This document shows, piece by piece, positions 9,603-37,049 of a stretch of 64,000 bases of DNA. Source of the stretch: Dokdonella sp. (GTDB taxonomy: Bacteria > Pseudomonadota > Gammaproteobacteria > Xanthomonadales > Rhodanobacteraceae); contig JADJQH010000008.1 of the NCBI GenBank assembly GCA_016712865.1, forward strand, positions 992,001-1,056,000. Direction: 5' to 3'. The notes under the pieces were generated by a model that was not told where the DNA came from, made no database searches, and was given only the letters and a program-made list of their open reading frames with translations. The first letter of the stretch is position 1; the number at the start of each line of letters is the position of its first letter. The translations under genes and the position numbers were made by a program.

Positions 9603-11138
9603 ATGCGCGCAGCAGCTTGGTTGTTGGTTGCAATCGGAAGTTATTCCCATACTGTTGCGGCTTGCGTGCGTGCGGGTGATACCTTGCTCGCTTCGGGTTT
9701 CGAAAAGCCACCGCTTCACGCCTGGTACGTCGCCACCAACGGCAATGACAACGGCACGGGCAGCGCAGCGTCGCCATGGCGGACCATCCAGCATGCGCTG
9801 GACACGGTATCTGCCGGCGATGCGATCTGCGTGCGTGGCGGTGTCTACAACGAGCTGGTGACGATCAGCCAATCCGGCTCGGCGACGGTCGGGCCGATCA
9901 TCCTGCAATCAGTCCCCGCTGAAACCGCCGTGATCGATGGTACGGGATTGCCGATTCCGGATGGACAGTACGGGCTGCTTACCCTGATCGACGCCAGCTG
10001 GATCACCGTGCAGGGTCTTGAGCTGCGCAACTACAGCACGGCATCAACCGCAAACGTGCCGATTGGGCTCTATGTGACCGGTGCCGGGACCGAGATCCGC
10101 GTGCTCAAGAACCGCATCCACGATATCCGCACCACGGCCAACGGCTGCGCGGCCAATGCATTTGGCTTGAAGGTGGATGGTACGCGCGCCCCGCAGTCAA
10201 TCAACCAGCTTTTCATCCACGGCAATGAGATCCACCATCTCACCTTGGGTTGCAGCGAATCGTTTTCGCTGGATGGCAACGTCGAGGACTGGATCATCAG
10301 CAACAACAGCGTGCATGACACCAACAACATCGCCATCGGCGCGATTGGCTTTGAAGGCGTCGCCCCCAATCCTGCCTTCGACCAGGCCCGTGATGGCGTG
10401 ATCAGCGGCAACACCGTCTACAACATCACCTCGTTCGGCAATCCAGCCTACGGGAACGAGTACGCCGCCGATGGCATCTATGTGGACGGCGGTACACGCA
10501 TCCTGATTGAACGCAACCTGGTGCATCACGTGGATATCGGCATCGAAGTGGCCAGTGAGCACGCCGGGCGCACCAGCAGCGATGTGATCGTGCGCAACAA
10601 CCTCATCCACTCCGGCAACTCCACCGGAATTTCCATCGGCGGCTACGACTCCAGTGTGGGCGGCAGTGAACGGGTGACCATCATCGGCAACACCCTGTTC
10701 CGCAATGACCAGCAAGGTACCGGAAGCGGTGAGTTCCAGATCCAGTACCACGCCAGCGACAACCGCTTTGACAACAACATCGTCTACGCCGGAGTCGGCG
10801 GCGTGCTGGTCTACGCCTACACCAATGACACTGCGCTGCCGGCCGGCATGAACCACAACCTGTACTGGACGGATGCCGGGCAGGCCAGCTGGACCTGGAA
10901 GGACGTCGAGTACACCAGTCTTGCCACCTGGCGCAGCGGCTCGGGCCAGGATGCGAACGGATTGTTTGCCAATCCCTTGTTCCTGAACCAGGCCGGATTC
11001 GATCTGCGCGTGGCCACGGGCTCTCCTGCAATCAATTCGGGTGCCGATCCTGGTGGCGGCATTGTCGGAACGCTCGACTTTGCCGGTTTGCCGCGCATCC
11101 AGGGTGCTGCCATCGACATCGGCGCGCACGAACGCTGA
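9603..11138 (+). CDS. secreted right-handed beta-helix protein (choice-of-anchor Q type)
   Basis: A 511-residue exported protein. The signal peptide MRAAAWLLVAIGSYSHTVA is followed by a short AGDTLLASGFE segment. A DUF1565-like start comes next (WYVATNGNDNGTGS, then SPWRTIQHAL), and then a long series of parallel beta-helix turns rich in Asn ladders (ISNNSVHD, ISGNTVYN, IVRNNLIH). The C-terminus, SPAINSGAD...DIGAHE, is the hallmark of choice-of-anchor Q proteins. These fold like pectate lyases or polysaccharide-binding helices, but no specific catalytic site is evident. The start at 9603 is chosen for GGAG at 9591-9594 and the immediately following signal peptide. The frame is open further upstream. 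Confidence 0.8.
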   Translation: MRAAAWLLVAIGSYSHTVAACVRAGDTLLASGFEKPPLHAWYVATNGNDNGTGSAASPWRTIQHALDTVSAGDAICVRGGVYNELVTISQSGSATVGPIILQSVPAETAVIDGTGLPIPDGQYGLLTLIDASWITVQGLELRNYSTASTANVPIGLYVTGAGTEIRVLKNRIHDIRTTANGCAANAFGLKVDGTRAPQSINQLFIHGNEIHHLTLGCSESFSLDGNVEDWIISNNSVHDTNNIAIGAIGFEGVAPNPAFDQARDGVISGNTVYNITSFGNPAYGNEYAADGIYVDGGTRILIERNLVHHVDIGIEVASEHAGRTSSDVIVRNNLIHSGNSTGISIGGYDSSVGGSERVTIIGNTLFRNDQQGTGSGEFQIQYHASDNRFDNNIVYAGVGGVLVYAYTNDTALPAGMNHNLYWTDAGQASWTWKDVEYTSLATWRSGSGQDANGLFANPLFLNQAGFDLRVATGSPAINSGADPGGGIVGTLDFAGLPRIQGAAIDIGAHER

Positions 11139-11144
11139 GGAATC

Positions 11145-11312
11145 GTCGGCTCCGGCCTGTCGCCTTGAGCCCACCAACGACGAAGCGGAAACGGATGATG
11201 TTTTCAACGAGCCTTGAGGTGATGTCGGCTCCGGCCTTTGGCCTTGAGCCGACCTACGGTTGTCGCAAGGAGTGTCGTAGGTCGGTTCAAGCGGCGCAGC
11301 CGCGGAACCGAC
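11145..11312. repeat. REP-like hairpin doublet with degenerate third unit
   Basis: Two hairpins lie back to back. 11224-11253 has arms GTCGGCTC / GAGCCGAC. 11281-11312 has arms GTCGGTTC / GAACCGAC with an inner GCGGC-GCA-GCCGC stem. The two units are themselves joined by a perfect inverted repeat, CCGACCTACG (11249-11258) and CGTAGGTCGG (11276-11285). A degenerate copy of the first unit lies at 11145-11174. The whole fills the gap between the beta-helix gene and acnD. Confidence 0.7.
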
Positions 11313-15348: not shown

Positions 15349-15682
15349 TGAAATCCATCAACACAGGCAGCACGGTTCGGCGGGAGACCGGGAATGCTGT
15401 GTCCGCAGTTGAAAGTGGGTTGATGGTCCCCTTGATGCAATCGGGGAACGTGGTTGGCGAAAGCTGAACAATTTCCTTGAAAGTGCGTGGAAAATCGACG
15501 CAACGAATTGATTTTACGGAAAATGTATCCAAGGCCGATGTTCAGGTCGCCATGCTCATAAATTGTTAAGATGGCGTTCTGGCATGACCGAATCGTCGTA
15601 CCATAGGCGACAGGGCTATGCCCTTCTTTTGCGTCACGTTGTGGCTGTCAAATCTGGATCCAATAAAACTGAGGAAACTGCG
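15349..15682. other. gene-less 334-bp spacer prpF-ompA
   Basis: No convincing gene is present. A 39-codon frame starts at 15348 overlapping the prpF stop (TGATG), but its sequence shows no known features. The second half, from about 15480, is more AT-rich than its surroundings and probably carries the ompA promoter. I could not single out one pair of -35/-10 boxes with confidence. GAGGAAA at 15671-15677 is the ribosome site of the next gene. Confidence 0.5.
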
Positions 15683-20458: not shown

Positions 20459-20577
20459 CCTAGGGAAGGGCTGATCAAGTATTGTCGCGAGCAAGCTCGC
20501 TCCCACCATTGCTTGATTTTGTGGGAGCGAGCTTGCTCGCGACGAATGAGTTCCGTACTCGTTCAGAGTTTCCCTAG
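20459..20577. repeat. REPIN-like palindromic element, copy A
   Basis: A 109-bp core (20464-20572) is flanked on both sides by CCTAG (20459-20463 and 20573-20577), giving a 114-bp period. Inside is a perfect 23-bp inverted repeat built on GTCGCGAGCAAGCTCGC and its complement, around a 14-base loop. Outer arms TGATCAAGTA / TACTCGTTCA extend the hairpin imperfectly. It differs from copy C at 5 positions and copy B at 4. The right flank provides the TAG stop of the leftward 134-residue gene. Confidence 0.9.
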
Positions 20578-25060: not shown

Positions 25061-26542
25061 ATGTGCGGAATCATCGGAATCCTCGGCAAGTCGGAAGTGG
25101 CCTCGGCCCTGTATGACGCGCTCACCGTCCTGCAGCATCGCGGGCAGGACGCGGCAGGCATCGCCACGGTGGATGGATCGCGCCTGCGCCTGCACAAGGG
25201 CAGGGGACTGGTGCAGGACGTGTTCAATCGCGACAACATGCTTGGCCTGCGTGGCGTTGTCGGCATCGGGCATTGTCGCTACCCCACCGCCGGGTCGGAA
25301 GGCAGTGCCGAAGCCCAGCCGCTGTACGTGAACTCGCCGTACGGAATTGCACTTGCCCACAATGGCAACCTGGTCAACACGGAAACCCTGCGCCGTGAAA
25401 TGTTCGAAGATGACCGGCGCCACATCAATACCGATTCGGACTCCGAATTCCTGCTCAACGTGCTGGCCCATGAGCTTCAGATCCAGGAACGCATGGCGCT
25501 TTCGCATGACCACATTTTCAAGGCGGTCGCCGGAGTGCATGCACGTTGCGTTGGCGGCTACGCCGTCGTCAGCCTTGTCCTGGGCTACGGATTGCTGGCA
25601 TTCCGCGATCCGCATGGAATCCGGCCACTGGTTTTGGGTGAGCGCGATACGCCCGAAGGCAAGGAATACGCCGTGGCATCCGAATCGGTTGCCTTCGACA
25701 TGCTCGGTTTCCGGCTCTTGCGTGATGTTGCGCCGGGTGAAGGCATCCTGATCACCCCCGAAGGCCAGTTGTATACGCGGCAATGCGCGGAATCCTCGAC
25801 GCATTCGCCCTGCATATTCGAGTACGTCTACCTGGCCAGGCCGGATTCCATGATCGAAGACGTATCGGTCTACCGGGCACGATTGCGCATGGGTGAGCGG
25901 CTTGCGGCGAAGATTCAGCGCCTGAGGCCAAAACACGGCATCGATGCAGTCATTCCGATTCCCGATACGTCGCGCACGTCGGCATCTTCATTGGCGCAGG
26001 TGCTCGGTGTGCCGATGCGGGAAGGCTTCGTGAAGAACCGCTACGTCGGCAGGACCTTCATCATGCCCGGCCAAAGCGAGCGCGTGAAATCGGTACGCAG
26101 GAAGCTCAATGCGATCGGCCTGGAATTCCGCAACAAGAATGTGCTGCTGGTGGACGACTCGATCGTGCGTGGCACCACGTCGCGCCAGATCATCCAGATG
26201 GCACGCGAAGCCGGTGCCAAACAGGTCTTTTTTGCGTCCGCCGCACCACCCGTGCGTTACCCGAACATCTACGGCATCGACATGCCCAGTTCCGCCGAGT
26301 TGGTCGCCAGTGGACGCAGCGAGTCCGAGATTGAAACCTTGCTGGGGGCAGACTGGCTGGTGTACCAGGATCTCGAAGACCTTGTTGCGTCGGTGGCCGA
26401 AGGCAATGAGAAGCTGAGTACGTTCGATACTTCGTGCTTCTCTGGCGAATACGTGACCGGAGTGGAACCCACCTACCTGGACCAGCTGGAATTTGCCCGT
26501 TCCGATGAGGCCAAGGACAAGCGGCGCCAGTTCGGTCGATAG
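25061..26542 (+). CDS. purF: amidophosphoribosyltransferase PurF
   Basis: This enzyme makes phosphoribosylamine from PRPP and glutamine, the first committed step of purine synthesis. It has 493 residues. The N-terminal nucleophile glutaminase begins [10 protein letters not shown], with Cys2 exposed after Met removal. The C-terminal phosphoribosyltransferase carries the PRPP loop [13 protein letters not shown] at about residue 365, and [11 protein letters not shown] and [14 protein letters not shown] are typical. The TAG stop at 26540-26542 lies in the flank of REPIN copy B, so the extreme C-terminus (KDKRRQFGR) may be influenced by the insertion. Confidence 0.95.
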
Positions 26543-26657
26543 GGAAACTCTGAACAAGTACGAAACTCATTCGTCGCGAGCAAGCTCGCTCCCACAAAAT
26601 CAAGCAATGGTGGGAGCGAGCTTGCTCGCGACAATACTTGTTCAGACCTTCCCCAGG
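26539..26657. repeat. REPIN-like palindromic element, copy B (inverted)
   Basis: A 109-bp core (26544-26652) in the opposite orientation to copies A and C is flanked by ATAGG (26539-26543) and CCAGG (26653-26657), again with a 114-bp period. It differs from copy C at three positions. The 23-bp internal inverted repeat is perfect. The left flank contains the purF TAG stop. The right flank is the first five bases of a separate 21-bp inverted repeat. Confidence 0.9.
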
Positions 26658-26820
26658 AGCCTGCGCGGCAGAAGCCATCCGGCTGCAACGTCGCTGCCAT
26701 CGATTGATTGGGTCAATCGTCAGGCTTGCATAGTGCCCGCTATGCGCACCTTCCGATTGATCCACTGAATCGCGTCAGCGTCGTTTCGCTTCGAATTCAT
26801 TCTGCCGCGCAGGCTCCTGG
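26653..26820. repeat. 168-bp element closed by perfect 21-bp inverted repeat
   Basis: Arms 26653-26673 (CCAGGAGCCTG...GGCAGAA) and 26800-26820 are exactly complementary over 21 bases. The 126 bases between contain further hairpins: CGATTGA-TTGGG-TCAATCG (26699-26717) and GCATAG-TGCCCG-CTATGC. The layout is that of a cruciform or a multi-branched RNA. There is no coding potential of note and no poly-T after the right arm. It lies between purF/REPIN B and the DUF455 gene. Together with REPIN B it fills the 374-bp gene-less gap 26543-26916. Confidence 0.75.
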
Positions 26821-28904: not shown

Positions 28905-30340
28905 GTTGGCAATATCTGCTTGCGTGGTTGTTGCCCCTGTTTGCCGGCAGCGGCCTGGTGCTGGCAATCGGCGGCGGCCGGCGAATGCCCGGAAATCTCT
29001 GCGCAATGCTGGGAACGGGGTTCCTGCTCGGGGTATTCGTGGCCGGCATCCTGTGCAGCCTGATTGCCCGTGAAAACGTCCAGGGCGCCTTTGCGGATGT
29101 CGCCCCCTGGTTGGCGGCGATCGGCATTCTTGCTTGGGTGGCTGCCCTTGGCTTGCGCGGAAAGCCCTGGCCGGAGGCATCGTTCAACAAGTCAGGGCTT
29201 GGCTGGCGCATGGTCTGGTGCTTGTTGCTGGCGATGATCGCCTTTCGCATCCATTCATTGGCGAGCGAAGTGCTCTTGCGCCCTACGTTCCCGTGGGACG
29301 CATGGGCAGCCTGGGCGGTGAAGCCCAAGGCATGGTTCCTGCTCGGTCACTACGCAGGATACGAGCCTATGCAGCAATGGCTCGCGAACCCCGGCACGAC
29401 CCTGCGAACATCGGCAATCTGGGACTACCCGGAACTGCTCGCATGGGTCCAGGTGTGGTTTGCCAGTGCCGTGGGCGGCTGGAATGAGCCCTTGATCAAT
29501 GCCGTCTGGCTGGGCGTGCTGGTGGCGATCGGCCTTGGCAGTTATGGAAACTGGCGCGTGCTGGGCGTTGCCCCGCTATGGGCCATGATTCTCGCCTATG
29601 GCCTTCTCTCGCTGCCGCTGATCGATGCGCACGTGGCCTTGGCGGGCTACGCGGACCTTTGGCTTGCGGCGACATTCGGTCTGGCCGTCTTGAGTTGGCT
29701 GCGCTGGCTGCGCTGGAAGGAGCACGGGCAATTGCTGCTGGCCGTGGCGTTGGCATTCTGCATGCCATTCATCAAGCTGGAAGGCGCAGTGTGGCTCTTG
29801 ATCGCCTCTGTCCTGGCGGGGCTGACGCTGTTGCCTCGGCGCTGGAGATGGATGACCGTTGGCGCCATCGTGTTGATGCTGGGAGCGAGCTTGCTGTTCG
29901 GTGGGCTCGTATTGCCGGTGTTCGGACTCGGCTGGGTGCACATGAGCTGGGGATCCGTGGTCGTGCCGGCACTCGGGAAAATGGACCTGCAGTGGCACCC
30001 GGTTGGGGTGGAAATGCTGAGCGGCTTGTTCACCCTGCCCAACTGGCACCTGCTCTGGTATCTGCTGCCGCTGGTCCTCGTGTTGCGTTGGCGTGGATTC
30101 CTCGTGGACCAGACAGCGCGCTGGCTGGGAATCCTGCTCCTGTGTTGCGCAACATTCCTGTTTATCCTGTTCTTCTTCACGGAGGCCTCGGCTTGGGCCG
30201 AGAACTACACCAGTTCCAACCGCCTGATCATGCACCTGGTGCCCGCCGTGTTTACCCTGCTGGCGCTGCTGCTGCGGGGTGTCAGCGTGTCAGGTTCTGA
30301 TAGAGCTCCTGAATCCGAAGCGCCGAACGCTCCAGCGTGA
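28901..30340 (+). CDS. polytopic membrane protein, GT-C glycosyltransferase-like
   Basis: A 479-residue inner membrane protein with about eleven hydrophobic helices. A periplasmic-loop-like segment RPTFPWDAWAAWAVKPKAWF, then IWDYPELLAWV, AGYADLWLA and FIKLEGAVW, recall the acidic loop and conserved blocks of lipid-linked sugar transferases of the GT-C fold. No family assignment is certain. The ATG at 28901 overlaps the preceding stop and has GGAG at 28891. A longer frame upstream is only out-of-frame reading of the previous gene. Its 3' end overlaps the convergent GT4 gene by 59 bp. It is presumed to act with the adjacent glycosyltransferases. Confidence 0.65.
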   Translation: MSWQYLLAWLLPLFAGSGLVLAIGGGRRMPGNLCAMLGTGFLLGVFVAGILCSLIARENVQGAFADVAPWLAAIGILAWVAALGLRGKPWPEASFNKSGLGWRMVWCLLLAMIAFRIHSLASEVLLRPTFPWDAWAAWAVKPKAWFLLGHYAGYEPMQQWLANPGTTLRTSAIWDYPELLAWVQVWFASAVGGWNEPLINAVWLGVLVAIGLGSYGNWRVLGVAPLWAMILAYGLLSLPLIDAHVALAGYADLWLAATFGLAVLSWLRWLRWKEHGQLLLAVALAFCMPFIKLEGAVWLLIASVLAGLTLLPRRWRWMTVGAIVLMLGASLLFGGLVLPVFGLGWVHMSWGSVVVPALGKMDLQWHPVGVEMLSGLFTLPNWHLLWYLLPLVLVLRWRGFLVDQTARWLGILLLCCATFLFILFFFTEASAWAENYTSSNRLIMHLVPAVFTLLALLLRGVSVSGSDRAPESEAPNAPA

Positions 30341-31529
30341 ATTCACTCAGCCAGCGTTCGCGTCCCGCCGTACCCATGGCGTGGCGAAGTCCCGGCGCAT
30401 GCATTTTTTCGATCGCGCTGGCCAGTTTCATTGCATTGCCGGGCGTGACCAGCAAGCCGTTGCCCTGATCCTGGACGACGTGATTGACGCCGGATCCTGG
30501 AATGGCGCTGGCAATGATGGGCAGCCCGGCTCGCATGGCCTCCAGCAACACCATGCCGAACGATTCGCTGCGATCCAGAGAGGGAAGCAGCAGGCAGTCG
30601 GCGTTTTTGTATGCGGCTTGCAAATCGCTGTCGCTGAGATCACCCACAAAGCTCACGCGCCCGGAAACACCCAATTCGCGGGATTGTTGGTGCAGGCGTG
30701 GGCCTTCTTCTCCAGACCCCACGACAACCAGGCTGGCCCGTGGACACCGTGCCATTGCCTGCAGCAGCACCGAATGGCCCTTGTAGTAGCTCAGCCTTCC
30801 CACGCAGAGCAATTTCAGGCCATCGACCAGCGGCCAGTCCGGTGCGTTTCCCGCAGCAGGGGTTTCATCGCCCGTACCCAAGGGAAGGTCTGAACAAGTA
30901 TTGTCGCGAGCAAGCTCGCTCCCACCATTGCTTGATTTTGTGGGAGCGAGCTTGCTCGCGACGAATGAGTTCCGTGCTTGTTCAGAGATTCCCAAGGGAA
31001 CGACATGCACCTTGTGCCGCCATTCGGCAAGCGCCGCGCTGGATTCCAGATAGTGTGGGCTGGTCGCCACGATGGCGGCGGCACGCTTGAGCAGTGCGCG
31101 TTCAAAAAAACGATAGATCCTGTAGGCGGCCCGCAAACGCCAATCCGGCACTTCCGCAGGAATATCCGCCTGCCAATGCACGACCCAAGGCAAAGCGCGG
31201 GCGCGCGGACTCAACAGCGCAGCCAGGCAGGAGGGATTGGGCATGTGCAGGTGCAGCAGTTGTGGTTTCCACGCGATCAGGAGGCGGCGCAGCTGCAAGG
31301 GGAAGGTCGGGCAAATCGGTGTGAACAGCACATTGCCAAGGCAGCCAACCCGATTCACTGCCACGCCGTTGCGCGTTTCCTCGGCACTGCGCCTTTGTCC
31401 TGCAGGTTGGTGAACCAGAACGCCCACCGACTCGCCTTGCTGCACAAACCATTCGGCCAGATCCTGCAGATACCTTTCCATGCCGCCACGCTGCGGAGCG
31501 TAGTACTTGCCGATATGCAGGATACGCAC
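30282..31529 (-). CDS. GT4-type glycosyltransferase carrying in-frame REPIN insertion
   Basis: A 415-residue GT-B fold glycosyltransferase of family 4. The N-terminal domain begins RILHIGKYYAPQRGGMERYLQ. The C-terminal donor domain has LLCVGRLSYYKGHSVLLQAM, CLLLPSLDRSESFGMVLLEA (the E-x7-E block) and GNGLLVTPG. The expected sequence runs VHVVPLG directly into TGDETPAAG. Here residues 181-218 are added by REPIN copy C, and PLG is repeated on both sides of the insert. The insertion lies in the linker between the two Rossmann domains, so function may survive. It starts with GTG at 31529, nine bases after the DUF2304 gene. The substrate is unknown. Confidence 0.85.
   Translation of the reverse strand: MRILHIGKYYAPQRGGMERYLQDLAEWFVQQGESVGVLVHQPAGQRRSAEETRNGVAVNRVGCLGNVLFTPICPTFPLQLRRLLIAWKPQLLHLHMPNPSCLAALLSPRARALPWVVHWQADIPAEVPDWRLRAAYRIYRFFERALLKRAAAIVATSPHYLESSAALAEWRHKVHVVPLGISEQARNSFVASKLAPTKSSNGGSELARDNTCSDLPLGTGDETPAAGNAPDWPLVDGLKLLCVGRLSYYKGHSVLLQAMARCPRASLVVVGSGEEGPRLHQQSRELGVSGRVSFVGDLSDSDLQAAYKNADCLLLPSLDRSESFGMVLLEAMRAGLPIIASAIPGSGVNHVVQDQGNGLLVTPGNAMKLASAIEKMHAPGLRHAMGTAGRERWLSEFTLERSALRIQELYQNLTR
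30878..30996. repeat. REPIN-like palindromic element, copy C, inside GT4 gene
   Basis: A 109-bp core (30883-30991) sits between direct repeats CCAAG (30878-30882 and 30992-30996). The match extends to ten bases, CCCAAGGGAA, at 30877-30886 and 30991-31000. The period of 114 bp equals 38 codons and contains no stop in the glycosyltransferase frame. The 23-bp inner inverted repeat is perfect. Identity to copies A and B exceeds 95%. Confidence 0.92.
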
Positions 31530-32749: not shown

Positions 32750-32782
32750 CCGTTCGTGGTGAGCCAGTCGAACCATGAACGG
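32750..32782. repeat. dispersed palindrome, single copy
   Basis: Arms CCGTTCGTGGT (32750-32760) and ACCATGAACGG (32772-32782) pair at 10 of 11 positions. The same palindrome recurs at 36914-36945, where its right half has expanded into a 24-bp tandem array. It is likely a member of a genome-wide repeat family. Confidence 0.7.
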
Positions 32783-33056
32783 AATCAGGGAGTTATGGCG
32801 ATGGACACGGAACTGCCCTGGCCGCCCGATCCTCAACCCATAAATCCGAAGTCGTGTGCCAGATGGCCACGACATCGTGAAGCCAACGCTTACCTGCACG
32901 CAGCAGCCAATCGCCCGTGTCCGGTTTCCGCCCACCCTTGCGTCTATGTTGTCCGAAGACGTGGCGGGAGTGGTCGCGTCGGGCTTCCCCGACCAGAATC
33001 AAACTCCCGATCGCGGCTGGTTTTCACTAGGCGGTCAAGCTTTTGCGCTGAACTTG

Positions 33057-36805: not shown

Positions 36806-36928
36806 GAATCTTCCTGCATCTCGAAATGGGGCGCGATGAATCGCTGTAGGGCAACGCTGATCAAGGCCCGCGCCTGGTTCATGTCTAAAGACGAGCGTAT
36901 GGTGCCGTGATTGCGTTCATGGTTCGAC

Positions 36929-37024
36929 AGGCTCACCACGAACGGAAACTACGGGCTCACCACGAACGGAAACTACAGGCTCAACACGAACGGAATTTAC
37001 AGGCTCACCACGAACGGAATTTGC
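36929..37024. repeat. four tandem 24-bp repeats
   Basis: Four consecutive units of 24 bases with consensus AGGCTCACCACGAACGGAAA plus CTAC (36929-36952, 36953-36976, 36977-37000, 37001-37024). They differ at only a few positions. The first unit is the right half of a palindrome that starts at 36914 (CGTTCATGGT). Confidence 0.9.
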
Positions 37025-37049
37025 TGAGCGCCCCCATCCGCCTTCGGCA

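Follow-up and report, generated by a model that had tools for sequence, protein, structure and literature searches.

How did a glycosyltransferase gene with an unbroken reading frame come to contain a translated palindromic repeat, and what kind of mobile element is this repeat? The window analysed here, a continuous stretch of 64 kb (G000:C8:992001-1056000), lies within a 3.75-Mb genome assembled into eight contigs (G000). The first-pass annotation interpreted the repeat as a REPIN-like element that had inserted in frame. The evidence presented below leads us to conclude, with a probability of about 0.9, that the insert is an IS5-type MITE built around a REPIN core, a young and non-autonomous element of high copy number that entered the gene in frame.

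The insertion in the glycosyltransferase gene

The gene carrying the insertion (30282–31529, minus strand) encodes a 415-aa GT4-type glycosyltransferase of the GT-B fold. The protein consists of two Rossmann-like domains, the N-terminal one matching the Pfam models Glyco_trans_4_4 (residues 15–180) and Glyco_transf_4 (residues 15–182) and the C-terminal one matching Glycos_transf_1 (residues 239–392). The fold assignment is further supported by an AlphaFold2 model and by PDB fold matches to GT4-type enzymes, including MshA, BshA and PimA. The insert lies between the N-domain models and Glycos_transf_1, which agrees with the position in the GT-B inter-domain linker proposed in the first-pass annotation. 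The PLG residues are indeed found on both sides of the insert, and the ORF traverses the palindromic element at the place indicated without encountering a stop codon.

The boundaries of the element had to be redrawn, from 109 bp flanked by CCAAG repeats to 110 bp (30883–30992; translated on the minus strand) flanked by a 4-bp target-site duplication, CAAG (left copy, 30879–30882; right copy, 30993–30996), as judged from the flanks and the empty site. The ten-base match reported across the two sides, CCCAAGGGAA, is present but overstates the duplication because it contains the first (GGAA) and last (CC) bases of the element itself. In a blastn comparison with the sister genome G003, bases 1–541 and 644–1248 of the gene match a single continuous orthologue and overlap in it by 12 bases (1503–1514), which leaves 114 inserted bases in the window gene. 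The G003 orthologue is thus the empty site of the insertion, and the element plus its duplication amounts to 110+4 = 114 bp, i.e., 38 codons, as originally suggested. The element itself encodes residues 180–216, and the 38 added residues correspond to positions 181–218 under one placement of the gap. An alignment with orthologues had been proposed as a check. Our homologue set comprised 19 loci and the gene itself; L075 and L080, for which the ORF finder returned no frame, were left out, and L185–L187 stood outside the resulting 18-protein alignment. The 38 residues occur only in the window protein and in none of the 17 aligned homologues, which rules out a pre-existing domain of this size. 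In the same alignment, the loop beside the insert varies in length and is longer in one homologue (L072).

The AlphaFold2 model of the protein, built from the 18-row alignment, is confident overall (pLDDT 87.4, pTM 0.84), with the exception of residues 187–222, for which pLDDT falls below 50. This stretch is flanked by the last strand of the N-domain (residues 174–176) and the first strand of the C-domain (residues 238–243), and the insert is accordingly predicted to form a disordered loop. At the RNA level, the insert with its duplications folds at −70.7 kcal/mol (z −12.95), and such a strong mRNA hairpin could lower expression of the gene. The copy differs from the family consensus at only two of 110 positions, and both variants recur in other copies (carried by six and four of 85, respectively, this copy included), from which we conclude, on sequence grounds, that the insertion is recent. 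Compared with G003, the gene shows a dS of 0.34 and a dN/dS of 0.18, with 11 amino-acid changes derived in G000, 20 derived in G003 and 14 that were not polarised. Given that the copy is young, these values mostly describe the gene before the insertion, and the purifying selection that they record is no proof that the enlarged enzyme works.

Ends, core and copies of the element

The terminal repeats of the element are GGAARNTCTGAACAAG. In the glycosyltransferase copy, the left terminal inverted repeat, GGAAGGTCTGAACAAGTA, occupies positions 30883–30900 (plus strand), and the right one occupies 30975–30992 (minus strand), where it reads GGAATCTCTGAACAAGCA inwards, with GGAAACTCTGAACAAGTA as the family consensus; both assignments follow from the parsed copies. 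Between these ends lies a REPIN core formed by two inverted REP arms of 23 bp, which are 100% complementary and separated by a 14-nt spacer (arm 1, 30903–30925, minus strand; arm 2, GTGGGAGCGAGCTTGCTCGCGAC, 30940–30962, plus strand).

Elsewhere in the window, near-identical copies were located at 20459–20577 and, inverted, at about 26540–26658. The former is a 110-bp copy with CTAG on both sides (20464–20573, plus strand; L112). The latter (26543–26652, minus strand; L020) has unequal flanking 4-mers, CTGG and CTAT, and begins immediately after the stop codon (26540–26542) of the ORF at 25061–26542. The window also contains other repeats, namely, a family of the type CCGTTCGTGGTGAGCC..., present as a single unit at 32750–32790 and as a 24-bp tandem array at 36905–37043, and two 52-bp direct repeats, 79% alike, at 11128–11258.

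The genome-wide search for further copies called for by the first-pass annotation was rewarding. BLAST of the element against the genome gave at least 86 matches, with 40 of 132 candidates scored, although the palindrome may match on both strands. A pattern designed to hit each copy once, with up to three mismatches allowed, recovered 107 sites in G000 (55 forward and 52 reverse; none for the control pattern), 100 of which were available as listed positions, and 33 sites in G003. Together with the fold score given above, these counts exclude chance. Among the 99 distinct copies parsed from loci near these and related sites, 85 are 110 bp long, four are 111, four are 109 and two are 108 bp; the remainder are two copies of 146 bp, one of 180 bp and one without a left end. 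On re-reading, one of the 111-bp copies proved to be 110 bp long, and five further copies were parsed beyond the 99. Length variants of the element thus include 146, 150 and 180 bp, some of which break the frame. At L200 (G000:C2:471700-472900) and L202 (G000:C2:1168000-1169000), MITE copies contain additional repeats of the inner REP unit, each step being about 35–36 bp, and as a result copy lengths no longer always keep the frame. Elsewhere, four copies stand in a row at a spacing of 218 bp (G000:C8:284125-284893; L009, L025 and L026); the three that were parsed share their flanks, as in a tandem duplication of the element with about 108 bp of adjoining DNA. No full-length element was found outside G000 and G003 among 233 genomes of the family, with up to three candidates scored per genome, suggesting that the element may be missing from the rest of the family. 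When plasmids were searched for distant similarity, the single match, in Pseudomonas, covered no more than bases 19–79 of the query.

The flanks of the copies bear on the mode of insertion. Flanking 4-mers are identical in 36 of the 85 copies of 110 bp and unequal in the other 49, compared with a mean of 7.7 and a maximum of 17 in 2000 shuffles; among the G003 copies, they are identical in 7 of 32. The duplicated words conform to the consensus Y-T-A-R: TTAG (8), CTAG (6), CTAA (5), CCAG (4), CCAA (3), TTAA (3), CAAG (2) and five singletons. One or both flanks carry a YTAR word in 73 of 98 copies; in the other 25, including the glycosyltransferase copy, neither flank does. The family therefore shows the 4-bp Py-T-A-Pu duplication of IS5-type elements, with the CAAG of the glycosyltransferase copy being off consensus. 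For IS5 itself, the target consensus given in PMC5493358 is also Py-T-A-Pu, and CAAG is among the recorded targets (1 of 24; Table 3).

The terminal repeats point in the same direction. GGAAGGTCTGAACAAG of the MITE matches GGAGGGTCTGAACAAG of elements in G006 and G038 at 15 of 16 bases, and the MITE end matches E. coli IS5 at 13 of 16 bases, with GGAAGGTGCGAATAAG found at one end of IS5A of E. coli K-12. Inverted pairs of GGAANNTCTGAACAAG-like ends (up to three mismatches) are held by 18 of the 30 DDE_Tnp_1 loci fetched. L162 in G006 and 14 loci of G038 carry GGAGGGTCTGAACAAG at each end, and the adjoining word is CTAG, CTAA or TTAG (CTTA in L174). Furthermore, G000 itself contains an intact IS5-family element of 1191 bp with a DDE transposase ORF and CTAG on both sides (L161), the transposase being 54% identical over 154 aa to part of InsH of IS5. 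Its ends, GGATGGTCTGA and GGAAACTCTGA, match those of the MITE at 13 and 12 of 16 bases, respectively, and differ from each other in the same manner as do the two ends of the MITE. The 110-bp element has no transposase of its own and shares its genome with this autonomous relative; with matches no better than these at its ends, L161 is not proven to supply the mobilising enzyme. Taken together, the ends and the duplications show that the element is an IS5-type MITE with a REPIN core rather than a plain REPIN, and, judging from the sequences, an IS5-type transposase would move it in trans.

The REP sequence is not confined to the MITE. The arm occurs at 283 sites within three mismatches, 112 of which carry the left junction of the MITE and 107 its right end, so that about 219 of the 283 arms ride in the MITE. 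The search for a RAYT recommended in the first-pass annotation yielded one candidate, a Y1_Tnp gene (L207; 168 aa as taken, 27.7 bits versus a cut-off of 23) with the same REP on both sides, an arrangement on the basis of which we call it RAYT-like. It is the only one of four Y1_Tnp loci in G000 flanked in this way; a MITE copy lies at one side of L204, and no REP was found at L205 or L206. Apart from the MITE, a REP array at L201 (G000:C2:635500-639000) contains 31 arms within five mismatches, with periods of 42, 85 and 127 bp and with both GTAG- and GTGG-tagged REPs.

Placement of the copies relative to genes

Copies of the element are rarely located within genes. When coding sequence was required both before and after the element (40 codons, score above 0.1), the in-gene flag went to 4 of 98 copies, compared with 60% of random points in the window; over four settings, the range was 3–9 of 98 copies versus 57–68% of random points. 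Although the flag is a crude codon score trained on 24 ORFs of the window, the binomial probability of four or fewer in-gene copies is below 1e-28, and random placement is ruled out. In G003, none of the 32 parsed copies was flagged. Even among the four flagged copies, only that in the glycosyltransferase is internal to a gene: L086 falls where two genes overlap, L007 does not keep a single frame through the element, and the flag of L129 comes from the strand facing a stronger coding frame. Extragenic placement is characteristic of REPINs; in the present family, four of 98 copies were flagged as in-gene and three were accepted as in frame within genes.

Part of this avoidance can be traced to the target word, since YTAR is rare in genes and often contains stop codons. 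In the window (61% GC), there are only 38 YTAR sites, five of them in-gene and six at the stop codon of a gene, whereas CAAG/CTTG and YYRR words are in-gene in 58% and 61% of cases, respectively, like random points. In 28 of 98 copies, the stop codon of a predicted coding frame lies inside the target repeat. Given the target words that the copies use, about 25 of 98 would be expected in genes (33–37 when the YTAR side is not preferred), versus the four flagged; target choice as the sole cause is therefore ruled out. The rest requires selection or some other bias, the loss of harmful genic copies being the likely cause.

Frames touching the element were checked for the 98 copies, and joined flanks were read for five. 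Three copies were accepted as lying in frame within a gene, that in the glycosyltransferase being internal and the other two near the start of genes for a PAP2 and a 7TMR-DISM protein (Pfam). In the PAP2 case (L086; G000:C3, around position 15546, element on the minus strand), insertion at a CTAG where two frames overlap retains the stop codon of the upstream frame within the same CTAG and lengthens the PAP2 protein by 38 residues, in frame, at about codon 4. In 15 of 16 other genomes, the best match of this protein does not start before residue 16, and in G038 it starts at residue 7, which indicates that the N-terminal addition is not conserved; no match was found in G003. In L133, the element (1423–1532) is inserted in frame at a TTAA, at about codon 3 of the 7TMR-DISM gene, ahead of what looks like a signal peptide, and an ATG of the element could serve as a new start. 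In six more copies (L036, L094, L115, L124, L129 and L135), a frame that stays open over some or all of the element leads into a coding frame, which may nevertheless begin at a later start, and in L034 the frame ends inside the element.

The consensus of the element is open in four of six frames, in agreement with the earlier remark that several frames appeared to be open. Four or more open frames have a probability of 0.03 in palindrome-preserving shuffles and of 0.0085 in simple shuffles. Together with the divisibility of 110+4 by three, this openness means that genic insertions can stay translatable. Given the P value of 0.03, the post hoc nature of the test and the frame-breaking length variants, we do not accept openness as an adaptation and regard frame neutrality as incidental tolerance.

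Alternative readings, mechanism and wider meaning

One parallel to the glycosyltransferase event is with the Rickettsia palindromic elements (RPEs), in which, as described in PMC10969869 and PMC3733652, a palindromic mobile element is likewise translated in frame within a host protein. The likeness, drawn already in the first-pass annotation, is apt for this one event but does not extend to a habit: of the 44 RPEs known in R. conorii, almost half are reported to lie within ORFs (PMC10969869), compared with three of 98 accepted copies here, and 28 of the 98 were found at predicted stop codons. An RPE-like system, adapted to coding frames and supplying protein segments, would account for the four open frames, the 114-bp unit and the three accepted insertions with the six additional open-frame copies. 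It is nonetheless very unlikely, considering the scarcity of in-frame copies, the lack of any in-gene flag among the 32 parsed copies of G003, the variants of 146, 150 and 180 bp and a weak, post hoc open-frame statistic. We give still less credence to a plain REPIN moved by a RAYT, in which the REP pair would be the mobile unit and the outer sequence incidental. The inverted REP pair with its 14-nt spacer and the REP-flanked RAYT-like gene fit that account, as do 13 other genomes of the family (up to three candidates each) that match in or around the REP core (query bases 20–89, in one case to 102) and not at the MITE ends. However, the copies stop at the outer 18-bp repeats rather than at the REP edge, 85 of 99 with a length of exactly 110 bp; they are bordered by 4-bp, YTAR-like duplications; and most arms travel with the outer ends. 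The REP pair, taken initially for the mobile unit, is thus the core of a larger one.

A different doubt concerns the fate of the gene. The two domains of a GT-B enzyme must move relative to each other, and the loop that joins them is the very part enlarged here. With a recent insertion and a strong mRNA hairpin, the gene might be a loss-of-function allele, in frame by luck given that four of six phases are open, and now decaying or silenced. We consider this unlikely, if deserving of some weight: the ORF is intact, homologues differ in the length of this loop, the model predicts a confident fold for each domain, and the G000 protein has fewer derived residues than that of G003 (11 versus 20), even if most of these predate the insertion. 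The likely outcome, as far as the structural model can tell, is a translated and still folded enzyme with a disordered loop.

Under the preferred reading, that of an IS5-type MITE inserted in frame, the sequence of events would be as follows. IS5-type terminal inverted repeats enclose a REPIN made of two inverted REPs like those flanking the RAYT-like gene. An IS5-family DDE transposase acting in trans would have made a cut staggered by four bases at a CAAG/CTTG target in the glycosyltransferase gene and inserted the 110-bp element there, and fill-in would have duplicated the four bases, a product visible by comparison with the empty site. The 114 bp keep the frame, the phase used being one of the four without stops, and the gene reads on with 38 extra residues in a length-variable loop between the GT-B domains. 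Most copies lie outside genes in part because YTAR is rare in coding DNA and often comes with stop codons, which the duplication regenerates; the remaining avoidance would reflect selective loss of genic insertions.

Several components of this picture have precedents. IS5 and IS5-family MITEs share with the element the terminal repeat (13 of 16 bases), the 4-bp Py-T-A-Pu duplication and the lack of room for a transposase; unlike them, it contains a REPIN core, whose inner REP can expand (copies of 146 and 180 bp). REPINs and GTAG REP dimers with their RAYTs, as presented in PMC3116915 and PMC3733652, resemble it in the inverted REP hairpin and the REP-flanked RAYT-like gene, whereas here most arms lie within IS5-type ends with target duplications. 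The outer inverted repeats that enclose REP dimers in Anabaena variabilis and Halothiobacillus neapolitanus are a further likeness, but carry no IS-family assignment in the account of PMC3733652. QMITE2 of Coxiella burnetii is, by the description in PMC5896051, a MITE that contains a GTAG REP and supplies genes with in-frame segments, one of them a C-terminal extension of EnhC; it differs in its 7–11 nt duplications of variable sequence and its length of 150–190 bp. Hence, in-frame insertions of MITEs or palindromes are already known from these reports (PMC10969869, PMC5896051, PMC3733652), as is a REP inside a MITE (QMITE2). Among the titles and abstract openings listed in searches of the open-licence literature, we recognised no REPIN inside an IS5-type MITE beyond the REP-containing QMITE2, and no landing of such an element at stop codons.

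Tentatively, and at somewhat less than even odds, we propose that the REPIN has changed vehicle: a native, RAYT-associated REP would have been captured between IS5-type ends, so that most arms are now spread by IS5-type transposition, and the borrowed YTAR rule together with the accidental 114-bp unit would soften the cost in a gene-dense genome. If so, stop codons would be regenerated upon landing and some of the few genic hits would still be translatable. In the glycosyltransferase, the empty site, the duplicated target, the stop-free phase and the structural setting can all be seen together, which makes it a clean and datable example of how a transposable element turns into a protein segment. 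A target word that is often a stop codon would be a testable, partial answer to how a compact genome tolerates an element at high copy number, and the capture suggests that REP sequences may spread without depending on RAYTs.
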